From Eubacterium ventriosum (lineage in GTDB: Bacteria; Bacillota; Clostridia; Lachnospirales; Lachnospiraceae): a stretch of DNA of 64,000 nucleotides. The DNA is taken from assembly GCF_025150745.1 (NCBI RefSeq), contig NZ_CP102282.1, forward strand, positions 1,933,501 through 1,997,500. The letters run 5' to 3'. The translations under genes were made by a program, and so were the position numbers. Each line of letters starts with the position of its first letter. Position 1 is the stretch's first letter. The notes beneath the pieces are model-generated. The model was not told the DNA's origin. It saw only the letters and a list, made by a program, of their open reading frames with translations, and did not search any database. Shown here one piece after another: positions 46,234 to 50,661 of this stretch.

Positions 46234-46608
46234 TTAGTCTACATTAGAATCAACTTCAGGATACTCCTCTGACGCAATTCTGATTACCAACTTATGCGGC
46301 AGACAGATAATCGACTCACCCTGTTTCTTAATCTTACCCTGTTTAACACAAATCTGATCAGGACAGTCGGAGCTTTTCATGTATACTTCTCTGTTCTTTA
46401 TAGTAATAATATTACTATATTCACCATCATCAACCTGATATTCGCCGTCATCATTAAGGGAAATAACCTTCTGAACGTGATTGTCCACAATGACTTCAAC
46501 ATAGTCTCCGTTAACATCAAATAATACCGTTACTGCTATCCAACTGCCAATGGCAATTACAATAAGTACAATTAAAATAATAATGTCAAGTCTGCGTTTT
46601 TTTACCAT
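46234..46608 (-). CDS. NusG domain II-containing membrane protein
   Basis: This 124-residue protein has one N-terminal membrane segment and a domain of the NusG domain II (DUF1312) type. Visible signatures are MKSSDCPDQICVKQGKI and SIICLPHKLVIRI. The two cysteines in CPDQIC and one in CLPH may be redox active. The ATG at 46608 follows AAAGGTGG by 8 nt. It is commonly paired with the Gx transporter gene, as here. Function is unknown. Confidence 0.85.
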   Translation of the reverse strand: MVKKRRLDIIILIVLIVIAIGSWIAVTVLFDVNGDYVEVIVDNHVQKVISLNDDGEYQVDDGEYSNIITIKNREVYMKSSDCPDQICVKQGKIKKQGESIICLPHKLVIRIASEEYPEVDSNVD

Positions 46609-46670
46609 CGACAAAACCACCTTTCCGTATCGTTTAGCTTTAAAAACCAAACGAATGTTTACCTATCTTT

Positions 46671-46699
46671 ATAATACCATATCCCCCTAATTTATACAA
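46671..46699 (-). promoter_or_regulatory. Candidate promoter of the NusG domain II / Gx operon
   Basis: TTGTAT (46694-46699) and TATTAT (46671-46676) are 17 nt apart on the minus strand, directly downstream of the structured repeat element. Confidence 0.4.
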
Positions 46700-46721
46700 T
46701 TATATTTACCAAAAAATTCAG

Positions 46722-46874
46722 AAAACTCCGTGCGAAAAATAATTATCGAAAGCACGCTACCGCTACTCTCAGCTAGTAGCGATCCTTAGAAGCTATGGTA
46801 GCTTTGCTACCCCATTTTCTTCGAACCGACGGCTTCGAAGTACTTTCTTACAATTATTTTTCGCACGGAGTTTT
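46722..46874 (-). repeat. Structured repeat element, copy 1 (100-nt core in a terminator-like stem)
   Basis: Arms 46722-46744 and 46852-46874 are perfectly complementary over 23 bp and end in A/T tracts, like a bidirectional terminator. They enclose a core at 46748-46847. Read on the minus strand, the core folds into an outer helix (GAAAGTAC with GTGCTTTC) and three hairpins: CTTCGAA/TTCGAAG with a GCCGTCGG loop, GGTAGC-AAA-GCTACC, and CGCTACT/AGTAGCG. The core aligns without gaps to copy 2 (49657-49756) at 74 of 100 positions. It starts 31 nt after the DUF6273 gene stop. No coding potential is seen. Confidence 0.8.
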
Positions 46875-46904
46875 AATATAATTTGCAAATCTTAGAGTGG
46901 TTTT

Positions 46905-48026
46905 TTACTTAATTGATACCCACAATGCAGGACGAATATGGATATTTGTGTCTGTAACAATGTATCCATAATCCATCACTTTGCCGTATGATACATACTG
47001 TGCTGTATTTTCGCTATTTCCCGGACCGATTAACCACCAGTCTCTTAAATAGTTGCTTAAGATTTCTTCATACTGTTCTGCCTGACTTCCATTAAGCATA
47101 AATATTTTATCTACTGTATCTTTTCCGGCTTTTGTACCATATGTACTATTATTTTCAACCTTAATATTTGTATCTAAAATTTTCTTTTGCATATTTAGAC
47201 TAAAAGTTCCATCTAAAAATGAACCATTTAAGTATTCTCTTAAAGTACATTCACTCCATGTTGTAGCTTTATCTCTTTCATTATAGGCTAATCCGTTAAT
47301 TGGTTCAGATTTTACAAGAAGTACTTTATCTCCATCATTTTCTAATATAAGCCAATGAAAATTACCAAATATAACATTTGTGCCGATTTTCTGCTTTTTA
47401 ATGTATTCAATTTCTAAATCAGCAAGTTTTTCTTCACTGTCACCATATTCAGACTCAACTAATTCCCTAAACATCTTAATTGCAGGCTCATAGTCTTCAT
47501 CTTTCCAGCACTGAAGTGCAAACTGATACTTACAGTCTCTCTTTCTTTCCTTGCTGTCTTTGTAATTCTTTAAGTTCTTAAACATCTTATAAGACTTCTC
47601 GTAATTGCCCTTGTTTTCATAAAAAGTTGCTCTCTGGTACCTTCCGGGTTTAGTCTTTAGATATACAATTCCACCGGCTGCGGCAATAACAAGTACAATA
47701 ACAAGGCCTATAATAACTTTTCCAATAATTCCATTGCTCTTGCTTTTGTTCTCATTAAAATCTTCTTCCTTAGGCTGAATTTCTTTCACTATCTTGGACT
47801 GTTCCTTATAATATTTGTGCTTCTTTAAGCATTCTTCATATTTATCTTTTGAATCCTCATATTCTCCTAAGTCTTTATATCTATCAGCAAGATTTTTAAA
47901 AAACTCTGCCTTTTCTTTATCTCTTGTTAAGCATTCAGTAGCTTTTAAAAGTCTTTCTGCATCTAAGTACATTTCTTCCTGAGTCTTAACCACTACGGTT
48001 TCCTTTTCTTTAGTTTTAGCTGCCAT
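46905..48026 (-). CDS. Membrane-anchored TPR-like protein with C-terminal DUF6273 domain
   Basis: This 373-residue protein has an N-terminal helical region (about 15-75; AERLLKATECLTRDKEKAEFF), a membrane segment (about 101-122; IGKVIIGLVIVLVIAAAGG), TPR-like helices (ATFYENKGNYEKSYKMFKNL, CWKDEDYEPAIKMFRELV) and a C-terminal DUF6273-type domain (about 230-373). The last has features such as FHWLILENDGDKVLLV, the WSECTLREYLNG segment and a final IHIRPALWV. This domain is common in surface proteins of Clostridia; function unknown. GGGAGG precedes the ATG. Confidence 0.78.
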   Translation of the reverse strand: MAAKTKEKETVVVKTQEEMYLDAERLLKATECLTRDKEKAEFFKNLADRYKDLGEYEDSKDKYEECLKKHKYYKEQSKIVKEIQPKEEDFNENKSKSNGIIGKVIIGLVIVLVIAAAGGIVYLKTKPGRYQRATFYENKGNYEKSYKMFKNLKNYKDSKERKRDCKYQFALQCWKDEDYEPAIKMFRELVESEYGDSEEKLADLEIEYIKKQKIGTNVIFGNFHWLILENDGDKVLLVKSEPINGLAYNERDKATTWSECTLREYLNGSFLDGTFSLNMQKKILDTNIKVENNSTYGTKAGKDTVDKIFMLNGSQAEQYEEILSNYLRDWWLIGPGNSENTAQYVSYGKVMDYGYIVTDTNIHIRPALWVSIK

Positions 48027-48052
48027 ATAAACCTCCCTTAACTGTATATATT

Positions 48053-48080
48053 ATTATACTCATTTAGACAAACTTTGCAA
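48053..48080 (-). promoter_or_regulatory. Promoter of the DUF6273 gene
   Basis: TTGCAA (48075-48080) and TATAAT (48053-48058) are 16 nt apart on the minus strand, about 30 nt before the ATG. Confidence 0.55.
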
Positions 48081-48136
48081 CGACAGTTATTTCATTAACG
48101 TTTTTTTGATTATAAAACCAATTCATTTTAGTTTTT

Positions 48137-49597
48137 TTATTTCTTGTTTTTAGCCTTTAATGATACTCTGTAAAATCTTTGCAAAAATACTTTAAAATCA
48201 AGGGGCATCAAAGGATAAACATAGCTTGTTCCTGCAATTGTTTTGTTTAATCCTACTACTGCCAATGTAAAAATTATCCCACCAATAAATCCGTATAATC
48301 CGAAAATCTGAGTAAAAATAAGCATAATTATTCTTAAAAATTTAACTGAGTATGCCAGTTCATAATTTTCGTGAGTAAAGTTTGCAATGGCAACAACAGC
48401 CATATATAACATAGTCTGCTGGTTAAACCACCCTGTATTAACAGAAAACTCGCCAATTACAATTGCTGCAATTAAACTTAAAGGTGTATTTAAAGTGCTT
48501 GGAGTGTTAATTGCTGCCAACTTTAATCCGTCAACAGCCAACTCCAAAATCAATAGTTGCCAAAAAATCGGCACATATTCAGGCTGTTCTATTTTAGTGA
48601 ACATTAACCAATCCGGTAAAATTTCAGGATTATTTGCATAAAGTAAAAACAACGGTGTCAGCAATAATGACATAACTGTAACGATCATTCTTGCAAGTCT
48701 TAAATAAGTTCCGGTAACCGGTGGGAAATAATAGTCGTCCGCCTCTTCTATCACATCAAAAATAGTTGTGGGAAGAAGCATTGCCGCAGGGGAATTGTCA
48801 ACAAGAATGGCAATCTGTCCCTCTAAAACAGATGCAGCAACCGTATCAGGTCTTTCAGTATAGCGAAACTTTGGAAATGGATTAAACCACTTGCCTTTAT
48901 AAACCGCCTCCGAAAGACTTTCCTGATTCATAGTTAATGCATCAACATCTATTTTTTCAATATTACTAATAATACGGTCAAGCAATTTTCTGTCAACCCT
49001 GTCATTCATATAACAAATAGCAATGTCCGTTCTTGAACTTTTTCCTGCACGCATAACTTTGCAAATATACTCAGGATTTCTAATTCTTCTTCTAATAAGG
49101 GCTGTATTAAGAATTAAAGTCTCAACGAAACCATCTCTTGAACCTCTAAGGACCTTGTACTTCTCTGGCTCCTGAACATTTCTTGCGGGATACTCCCTAG
49201 CATCAATCAAAATAGCCTTATTAAAGCCATCAATAAGCAAACAGGAAACCCCGGACAAAAGCATGGTAACCACGTTATACTTATCCCCATACAAATTAAT
49301 TTCCAAATAAGGAATCTGATTATTGGCAAAATCTATTACAGAGCTCTCCACATCAGACACATCAATCCCCAAAAAAAACTCCTGAATCTTCTGCAGCATA
49401 TCATCTTTACAAAAACCATTAATGTAATAAATAACAGCCCTCTTATCTCCAATATCAAACTCTCTTTTAAGTAAATCAAAATTTTCCTCTAAATGCAACA
49501 ACTGGTCCAATTTTTGTTCATCCAATTCGATATTACCCTTAATGAAACTATATTCAGAATTTTTTTCATAGTTTTCTCTCTTCTCTTTATTTAACAT
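48137..49597 (-). CDS. GerA-family spore germination protein (SpoVAF-like)
   Basis: This 486-residue protein has the GerA/SpoVAF layout: a soluble N-terminal half (about 1-290) with SRDGFVETLILNTALIRRRIR and IAILVDNSPAAMLLPTTIFD, and a C-terminal membrane domain with about five segments. GerA proteins are A subunits of germinant receptors; SpoVAF forms a related channel. No GerB or GerC gene is adjacent and the gene stands alone, which favours a SpoVAF-like or orphan role. The ATG at 49597 follows GAGG by 6 nt. It supports endospore formation in this organism. Confidence 0.88.
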   Translation of the reverse strand: MLNKEKRENYEKNSEYSFIKGNIELDEQKLDQLLHLEENFDLLKREFDIGDKRAVIYYINGFCKDDMLQKIQEFFLGIDVSDVESSVIDFANNQIPYLEINLYGDKYNVVTMLLSGVSCLLIDGFNKAILIDAREYPARNVQEPEKYKVLRGSRDGFVETLILNTALIRRRIRNPEYICKVMRAGKSSRTDIAICYMNDRVDRKLLDRIISNIEKIDVDALTMNQESLSEAVYKGKWFNPFPKFRYTERPDTVAASVLEGQIAILVDNSPAAMLLPTTIFDVIEEADDYYFPPVTGTYLRLARMIVTVMSLLLTPLFLLYANNPEILPDWLMFTKIEQPEYVPIFWQLLILELAVDGLKLAAINTPSTLNTPLSLIAAIVIGEFSVNTGWFNQQTMLYMAVVAIANFTHENYELAYSVKFLRIIMLIFTQIFGLYGFIGGIIFTLAVVGLNKTIAGTSYVYPLMPLDFKVFLQRFYRVSLKAKNKK

Positions 49598-49632
49598 AAA
49601 AAACCTCACACTTTCCGGATTCGAATTTCTAA

Positions 49633-49782
49633 AAAATTGTACAGGTTTGCCATTGCTAAAGCACGCTTCCGCTGCCCTCGGCTCGTAGCGGTACTAAGAA
49701 GCTGTAGCAGTTTCACTGCCCCACCTCCTAAGGACCGACGGCCTCAGAGCACTTTCGGCAAAAGGCAAACCCGTACAATTTT
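49633..49782 (-). repeat. Structured repeat element, copy 2 (100-nt core in a terminator-like stem)
   Basis: Arms 49633-49651 and 49764-49782 are complementary over 19 bp with a single non-Watson-Crick position, which is G-U when read as minus-strand RNA. The minus-strand 3' arm runs into a T tract. The core (49657-49756) aligns base for base to copy 1. It keeps the stems by compensatory changes, for example C-G for T-A and T-A for C-G in the middle hairpin (GGCAGT-GAA-ACTGCT here). The arm sequences are unrelated to those of copy 1. It begins 60 nt after the rnfB stop, where an operon terminator is expected. Confidence 0.8.
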
Positions 49783-49842
49783 AAAATCTTCGTATCTATA
49801 ATAGTGTGAGGTTTTTTATTAATATTATGCATAGAAAGAAAA

Positions 49843-50661
49843 CTATGATAATTTTTCTATAACTTTCTTAGGGCATTTTGCAGCACAAATGCCACAGTTT
49901 TTGCATTTGTCCTGATTTATTGTTGCAAGATTATATTCAAAATCGATTGCATCATTTGGACAGTTCTTTGCACATAGTCCACATCCGATACATCCTGCTG
50001 TACATGCCTGCATTACATCACGTCCTTTGTCTTTTGATCGACATTTTACCATGTATTGATGATCTGCAGGAATTATTGAAATAAGTCCTTTTGGACATGC
50101 TGCAACACATTTTCCACAGGCTTTACATTTTTCTCTGTCTACAAGTGCTTTTCCGTTTACTATATGGATTGCGTCAAATTCGCAAGCTTTTACACATGAG
50201 CCAAGTCCTAAACAACCATAGCTACATGCTTTTGCACCGCCACCGGGAATGTTTGCCGCATCCTGGCATGACATGTTTCCATAATAGTTGTATTTGTCTT
50301 TTGCCTTGTCACAGTCTCCTGAACATGAAACATAAGCTACTTTTGGAACTACTTCTGCTTCAACTCCAAGAATGTCTGCAATTTTTTTGGCTACAGGTGC
50401 GCCACCAACAGGACAAGCTGAAGGTTCACTTTCACCACTTGCTATTGCTGCAGCAAGTCCGTCACATCCCGGATATCCGCAACCACCACAGTTATTGCCC
50501 GGAAGTGCTTCTCTTATTGCAACTTCTTTTTCATCCACTTCTACTGAAAGGAATTTTCCTGCTATTCCAAGTGCAATACCTATAAATAAGCCTACACCAC
50601 CTACGATTAATACGGCATATAAGATACTGTTAACTGATATACTAACTGCTAATAAACTCAT
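49843..50661 (-). CDS. rnfB: Rnf complex subunit RnfB (ferredoxin-like)
   Basis: This 272-residue protein has an N-terminal membrane anchor (about 10-33) and many Fe-S motifs. The first is the RnfB signature NNCGGCGYPGCDGL with CP further on. Ferredoxin-type motifs follow (CLGLGSCVKACEF, CKACGKCVAACP, CIGCGLCAKNCP, CKNCGICAAKCP). It is thought to be the entry point for electrons from reduced ferredoxin into the ion-pumping Rnf complex. It is the last gene of rnfCDGEAB. Confidence 0.95.
   Translation of the reverse strand: MSLLAVSISVNSILYAVLIVGGVGLFIGIALGIAGKFLSVEVDEKEVAIREALPGNNCGGCGYPGCDGLAAAIASGESEPSACPVGGAPVAKKIADILGVEAEVVPKVAYVSCSGDCDKAKDKYNYYGNMSCQDAANIPGGGAKACSYGCLGLGSCVKACEFDAIHIVNGKALVDREKCKACGKCVAACPKGLISIIPADHQYMVKCRSKDKGRDVMQACTAGCIGCGLCAKNCPNDAIDFEYNLATINQDKCKNCGICAAKCPKKVIEKLS

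Follow-up and report, generated by a model that had tools for sequence, protein, structure and literature searches.

The bcr1 repeats of the Bacillus cereus group are intergenic, multicopy sequences of about 150 bp that have a conserved secondary structure, behave like mobile elements, and have a fixed TTTAT target duplication. ERIC, Correia/NEMIS, RUP, and the Rickettsia palindromic elements have family-wide end sequences, and group IIC introns are mobile elements that target hairpins at terminators. Here, we describe a structured repeat, two copies of which lie in a stretch of 64,000 nucleotides from Eubacterium ventriosum (contig NZ_CP102282.1, positions 1,933,501 to 1,997,500; this whole stretch is called the window). 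The repeat has a conserved folded core seated on a long stem, often of locus-specific sequence. It probably represents a family of small, non-autonomous mobile elements, with a variable long stem and a spread that depends on recognition of the fold.

Likened by description and not by sequence comparison, the element resembles bcr1 in kind, being intergenic, multicopy, about 150 bp long, conserved in structure, and mobile in behavior. Its copies are numerous and intergenic, their structure covaries, and they are present or absent between relatives. Unlike with bcr1, no target duplication was seen by eye, and the arms are often locus specific and separable from the core. The association of one insertion (copy 2) with a hairpin recalls group IIC introns, but a group II intron is far larger than the element, and no Rfam group II match was obtained in the window and 18 copy loci at gathering thresholds.

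PMC2267715 lists Bcr1 as a repeat family. PMC11109978, a noncoding RNA survey of 50 genomes, defines mobile/repeat sequence candidates (MRSC) by multiple copies per genome and inconsistent gene orientation, a working definition that the element fits. MRSC-65-2, as presented there, is a single long covarying stem with a UYCCGG repeat and dozens of copies in diverse phyla, whereas our element, detected in a single bacterial family only, is branched and has a GNRA hairpin. In being small, non-autonomous, palindromic, and multicopy, it is like ERIC, Correia/NEMIS, RUP, and the Rickettsia palindromic elements as described in PMC2229807; it differs from them in having a conserved core and variable ends. 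From bcr1 and MRSC it is distinguished by its insertion in a hairpin loop and by a conserved core flanked by arms that vary yet pair. In the literature searched, which excluded subscription papers and supplements, we found no description of the element, and it may already stand unnamed in the tables of PMC11109978 (250 mobile or repeat candidates) or PMC8040213 (3161 candidates).

Fold and distribution of the core

The conserved cores occupy positions 46747 to 46847 (copy 1) and 49656 to 49756 (copy 2), both on the minus strand. Aligned without gaps, 46748 to 46847 and 49657 to 49756 are identical at exactly 74 of 100 positions, as a preliminary description of this DNA had roughly counted; random 100-mers of the window (n = 200, about 900 placements each) gave a mean of 43.6 and a maximum of 51 identities. 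Against shuffled sequences, the minus strands of the two copies folded with z scores of −6.87 and −6.70 and their plus strands, less strongly, with −5.27 and −4.65. The 100-nucleotide core, which had been taken for the element, is real but is only its inner part, since long complementary arms lie outside it in both copies. In copy 1, the 5′ arm of the long outer stem (46848 to 46874, minus strand) pairs in the fold with the 3′ arm (46722 to 46747), base 46747 being common to the arm and the core as drawn. In copy 2, the 5′ inner arm (49764 to 49795, minus strand) pairs with the 3′ inner arm (49619 to 49651). A covariance model, R1, was built from seven copies of the window's genome; it matched 46736 to 46859 in copy 1 (120.3 bits) and 49645 to 49769 in copy 2 (121.2 bits).

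Two hairpins, one long and one small (GC-GNRA-GC), together with a closing helix make up the core, which comprises about 80 to 100 nucleotides of one strand. Inspected by eye, the longer one shows GA/GA facing each other in an internal loop of 2 bases, a bulge, and a CUUAG/CUUAG helix whose center is a U-U mismatch. The small hairpin is GC-GGTA-GC in copy 1 (46756 to 46763, minus strand), with a GNNA loop that is GNRA in most copies, and GC-GGAA-GC in copy 2 (49665 to 49672, minus strand), with a GNRA loop. Across copies, the loop of the GC-NNNN-GC hairpin was GNRA in 92 of 94 rows (3 rows being common to both alignments). The pair changes reported between the two cores were all present when read on the minus strand, namely 39/49 (T-A to C-G), 42/46 (C-G to T-A), 37/51 (G-C to G-U), and, in the third hairpin, 66/88 (T-G to C-G). 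In contrast, GCCGTCGG and AGCTTCT had been considered unpaired or nearly so, but both fall in paired columns of the consensus fold. The GCCGTCGG pairs covary, for example, CG in 23 and UA in 21 copies at columns 38-136.

The structure was derived from the window's genome and tested mainly on copies of other genomes. In 44 aligned copies, 94.5% of 1903 cells were paired (66.7% after shuffling), 43 of 48 pairs showed change on both sides, and the covariation score was 0.640 (0.065 to 0.101 with partners slid), in an alignment that was fitted to the covariance model and is thus biased towards it. A MAFFT alignment of the seven copies of the window's genome, made independently of the model, already had changes on both sides in 18 of the 48 pairs. 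The claim of a structured element with compensatory base changes was therefore borne out. Furthermore, G-U cells outnumbered A-C cells by 135 to 10 in 36 core pairs, and by 37 to 8 when four wobble-rich pairs were excluded. This excess indicates that the fold of one strand is under constraint, and we consider it highly probable that the strand-specific fold matters.

Further copies in the window's genome were first revealed by a DNA similarity search, and model R1 detected eight full copies on the 2.86-Mb chromosome, in agreement with the expectation that the two were part of a larger set. Seven weaker R1 rows corresponded to the same sites on the opposite strand. Likewise, the suggested covariance-model search was favorable: 108 of 397 genomes of the host's bacterial family matched R1 at an E value of ≤0.01, the window's genome included. 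A draw from the phylum (n = 398) gave 4 matches at an E value of ≤0.001, all from the host's family and again including the window's genome; one family member without a match was among the rows listed, so that about 393 genomes lay outside the family, and none of these had an R1 match. In eight genomes picked for having matches, at least 5, 12, 36, 20, 23, 22, 22, and 6 copies were counted, with at most 150 candidates scored in each. Genome G418 carries at least 122 copies (150 of 424 first-look candidates scored; locus L173, at a contig edge, was excluded from the G418 sets), and no copies were found in G419 and G425, which belong to the same genus. None was found by DNA similarity search in 22 congeners of the window's genome, not all of which were searched with the model as well. 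Because its presence is patchy, multicopy, and in both orientations, the element is almost certainly a mobile structured repeat family and not a fixed gene.

Genome G200 has at least 36 copies, not counting a larger variant whose core bulge carries an insertion of four extra hairpins between CGU and GGCG. Six copies of this variant were seen (L243, L249, L253, L255, L259, and L261), with about 310 bp between the end repeats where both were found. The spacing of end repeats in G200 suggests a seventh.

In line with the preliminary description, which named no known RNA family, no copy matched Rfam. At gathering thresholds, the whole window and the 18 copy loci yielded one tRNA and one T-box, neither on a copy, and a permissive search of 46600 to 49900 yielded two weak hits, neither overlapping a copy. 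A blastn search of two copies against phage and plasmid collections gave no match, and two scans of viral contigs for exact patterns were also negative. Eight pattern-scan hits in public genomes of assorted taxa were taken as chance, because R1 did not recognize them at E values up to 1. The element thus adds to the structured elements outside the Rfam release used.

Copy 2 in the loop of an older hairpin

Copy 2 lies between rnfB (49843 to 50661, minus strand; TIGR01944, 102.8 bits against a cutoff of 68.7) and a gene for a GerA-type spore germination protein (48137 to 49597, minus strand; Pfam PF03323, E value 3.3e-138), both outside the element. Among the 21 rnfB loci of congeners, 13 were inspected, and in one of these (L104) rnfB was not recognized by motif. 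In 10 of the remaining 12, an uninterrupted hairpin, CCTCACACTA-loop-TAGTGTGAGG with variants included, is located directly before the gerA start codon and has a loop of 3 to 10 bases. G002 has a weaker version, and in G007 the hairpin is missing. In the window, the same two hairpin arms are present, the 5′ arm AAAAAACCTCACACTAT at 49801 to 49817 and the 3′ arm at 49598 to 49613 (minus strand), directly before the gerA start codon. They are about 187 bases apart and enclose the inner arms and the core.

The arm matches to G018 total 21 bases, and 2000 block shuffles gave a maximum of 20 and a mean of 12.9. Since this margin is small, the case for an empty site rests more on the ten congeners and on the position. 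The uninterrupted hairpin in the congeners and the filled loop in the window show that the hairpin is older and that the element entered its loop. The 10 congener hairpins lack both inner arms of copy 2; judged from these sequences, the inner arms are not ancestral at the rnfB-gerA site. Insertion into a preexisting hairpin loop was thus documented for copy 2 only. A hairpin that is uninterrupted in relatives and filled here offers a natural test case of site choice by small folded elements.

The 3′ arm of the older hairpin contains, by eye, GAGGT, a possible ribosome-binding sequence. At the congener loci (L093 to L105), the hairpin may occlude the ribosome-binding site of gerA; in the window, the element interrupts this hairpin.

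Cores, arms, and the mode of spread

Near-identical cores can sit in arms that are unrelated to each other and yet self-complementary. In the window's genome, loci L008 and L009 have cores that are 99% identical and inner arms that are 46% identical, which is chance level. The cores of L165 and L166 in G418 are also 99% identical, with inner arms at 55% (genome baseline, 57%), and in G200 the cores of L114, L115, L132, and L134 are 95 to 98% identical, with inner arms at 46 to 57%. One copy was also clearly found within another: L167 (G418) lies between two halves of another copy, both scoring above the threshold of 13. L116 (G200) and L184 (G418) lie between halves too, one half scoring 12.5, just below the threshold, and at L142, L170, L172, L176, and L009 only part of another copy stands alongside. 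The control on the opposite strand gave 0 of 87 for the 5′ half and 3 of 87 for the 3′ half.

To explain these features, we propose that a trans-acting protein would recognize the folded single-stranded core, as RNA or, less likely, as single-stranded DNA, and would copy or transfer it to other sites, which in some cases at least are hairpin loops. Insertion at hairpins and at the 3′ ends of genes would do little harm, and these would for that reason be the preferred landing sites. The arms would be formed or renewed at the insertion site and kept paired by template switching during replication and perhaps by selection. Hairpin loops as the general target are a tentative part of this proposal, slightly less likely than not. 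We consider it unlikely that the element represents a new class, one whose unit of transposition is a folded core of RNA or single-stranded DNA that seeks out hairpin loops and makes its own long palindromic arms at every new site; if this were so, the arms would record insertion and not ancestry. Conserved cores in changing yet paired arms bear on the origin and upkeep of long stems. The preliminary description was right about a structured, multicopy element without an Rfam match; it erred on part of the fold and did not foresee mobility, locus-specific arms, or the hairpin-loop site.

As to the folded form, GNRA loops and G-U pairs are typical of RNA. Single-stranded DNA, when folded, can likewise contain compact GNNA loops and G-T pairs, and G-T is well tolerated in DNA. 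RNA is therefore likely but unproven, and judging from the sequences we regard it as the more probable of the two.

Several observations weigh against the proposed separation of core and arms, its hairpin target, or its mechanism. Locus L163 of G418 shares 97% and 96% of its core with L165 and L166, respectively, and its inner arms (63% and 73%) are above the 57% baseline. In G200, the similarity of the inner arms climbs with that of the cores, from 0.44 below 70% core identity to 0.90 at ≥97%; in most of the 17 G200 copies viewed, arms and outer ends are shared and were amplified along with the core. L013 and L014 of the window's genome have common arms as well, and gene conversion between cores could mimic a separation of core and arms. 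Only one clean empty site, that of copy 2, was obtained. In four congeners at L008 (rnhB/yraN), seven at L010 (two V-ATPase-like genes), and six at L011 (an fmt-like and a peptidase-like gene; gene names by eye), inspection by eye showed a short gap and no long hairpin, so that a hairpin target is not shown at these sites. The orthologous G200 sites of the G418 copies allowed no base-by-base alignment. No mobilizing gene was identified, no comparison of gene content having been made, and inspection of the 17 G200 copies by eye, not a systematic test, revealed no target-site duplication. Finally, since G-T is tolerated in DNA, the strand asymmetry is no proof of RNA.

The main rival is an ordinary miniature inverted-repeat transposable element (MITE), with terminal inverted repeats on which a transposase acts and a folded core that is carried along passively. 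It fits the G200/G418 subfamily best: the outer end AGGGGCTGTAAAAAATCAAAA (≤3 mismatches) occurs 55 times in G200 and 39 times in G418 (reversed control, 0; G419, 0), and most of the 17 G200 copies viewed share or resemble these ends. By eye, however, the ends are unrelated in copies of other genomes and no target duplication is seen; conservation across the family lies in the core, not in the ends, and covariation with a strong strand bias would not be expected of a passively carried core. We therefore regard a MITE as rather doubtful, although a better candidate than a repeated structure useful to the host as a transcription terminator, insulator, or mRNA 3′-end stabilizer, which seems improbable. 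The latter would suit copies at gene 3′ ends, with only 8 of 115 between divergent genes (the background also leans this way), and the various hairpins of their own that, by eye, six congeners carry between convergent genes at L014. It is at odds with the patchy presence and with the L010 copy between V-ATPase-like genes (by eye), where seven congeners have a short gap. A T-rich sequence followed the outermost helix in 23 of 105 copies, mostly of G200, and occurred at the control place in 14 of 105; since this enrichment is slight, a terminator is no general description of the element.

Pairing of the arms could also result from mutation (template switching, quasi-palindrome correction) and not from selection or an insertion step, a possibility that is compatible with fold-recognized spread and falls moderately short of an even call. 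PMC8794818 reports, for other RNAs, that template switching creates and repairs perfect hairpins, and in our element the arms are paired even though some of them bear no relation to each other in copies of similar core. Mutation would not account for the conservation of the core, for its wobble pairs, or for the spread between loci. The strong covariation alone would also suit a fixed, vertically inherited cis-regulatory RNA such as a riboswitch or leader. We rejected this very improbable reading on distribution and gene context: the orientation to genes is inconsistent, 0 of 22 congeners have the element by DNA similarity, and a single genome has at least 122 copies. Capture of arms from preexisting long hairpins is unlikely as a general rule, because such hairpins without the element are rare and the congener hairpins lack the inner arms seen in copy 2. 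Indeed, core-less hairpins of comparable length numbered only 4 in about 223 kb of fetched sequence (loops of ≤40 bases). We favor fold-recognized spread of the core over these alternatives.

Placement and associated repeats

According to a simple open-reading-frame caller, 115 copies comprised 41 in '++' tandem (sense), 37 in '--' tandem (antisense), 29 in convergent, and 8 in divergent gene contexts; the background, taken from every pair of adjacent reading frames at these loci, was 155 tandem, 42 convergent, and 20 divergent. Neighboring copies at most 700 bp apart were divergent in 11 cases, tandem in 4, and convergent in none (257 copies, 7 genomes); such close pairs were located in G418, G292, G412, G030, and G200. 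Orientation to the replication strand in G200 showed, by eye, no clear pattern.

In the search for further empty sites, the flanks of G418 copies were sought in G200, G419, G420, and G426; the neighboring genes were found, and the gaps were too diverged to align. A BLAST comparison of 35 G418 loci with 34 G200 loci gave few orthologous neighborhoods, and a G200 locus aligned to G418 as an empty site proved to be a larger rearrangement instead.

Core-less hairpins with the same end as G200/G418 copies, or a similar one, occur at L265 and L239 (G200) and at L242 and L183:1116 (G418), the hairpin in L183 immediately following a tRNA-Arg gene. These hairpins may be empty sites, or they may have arisen by internal deletion. 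Next to full copies at L009:1490-1800, L166, L178, and L180, the 3′ half or right arm is, by eye, partially duplicated in tandem. At L145 (G292:C2:86500-92500), three same-strand copies with related arms are spaced about 900 to 1000 bp apart, apparently as a tandem repeat of a larger unit. Other tandem hairpin-like repeats occur in congeners G007 (L215) and G020 (L217), in gaps matching element sites of the window's genome.

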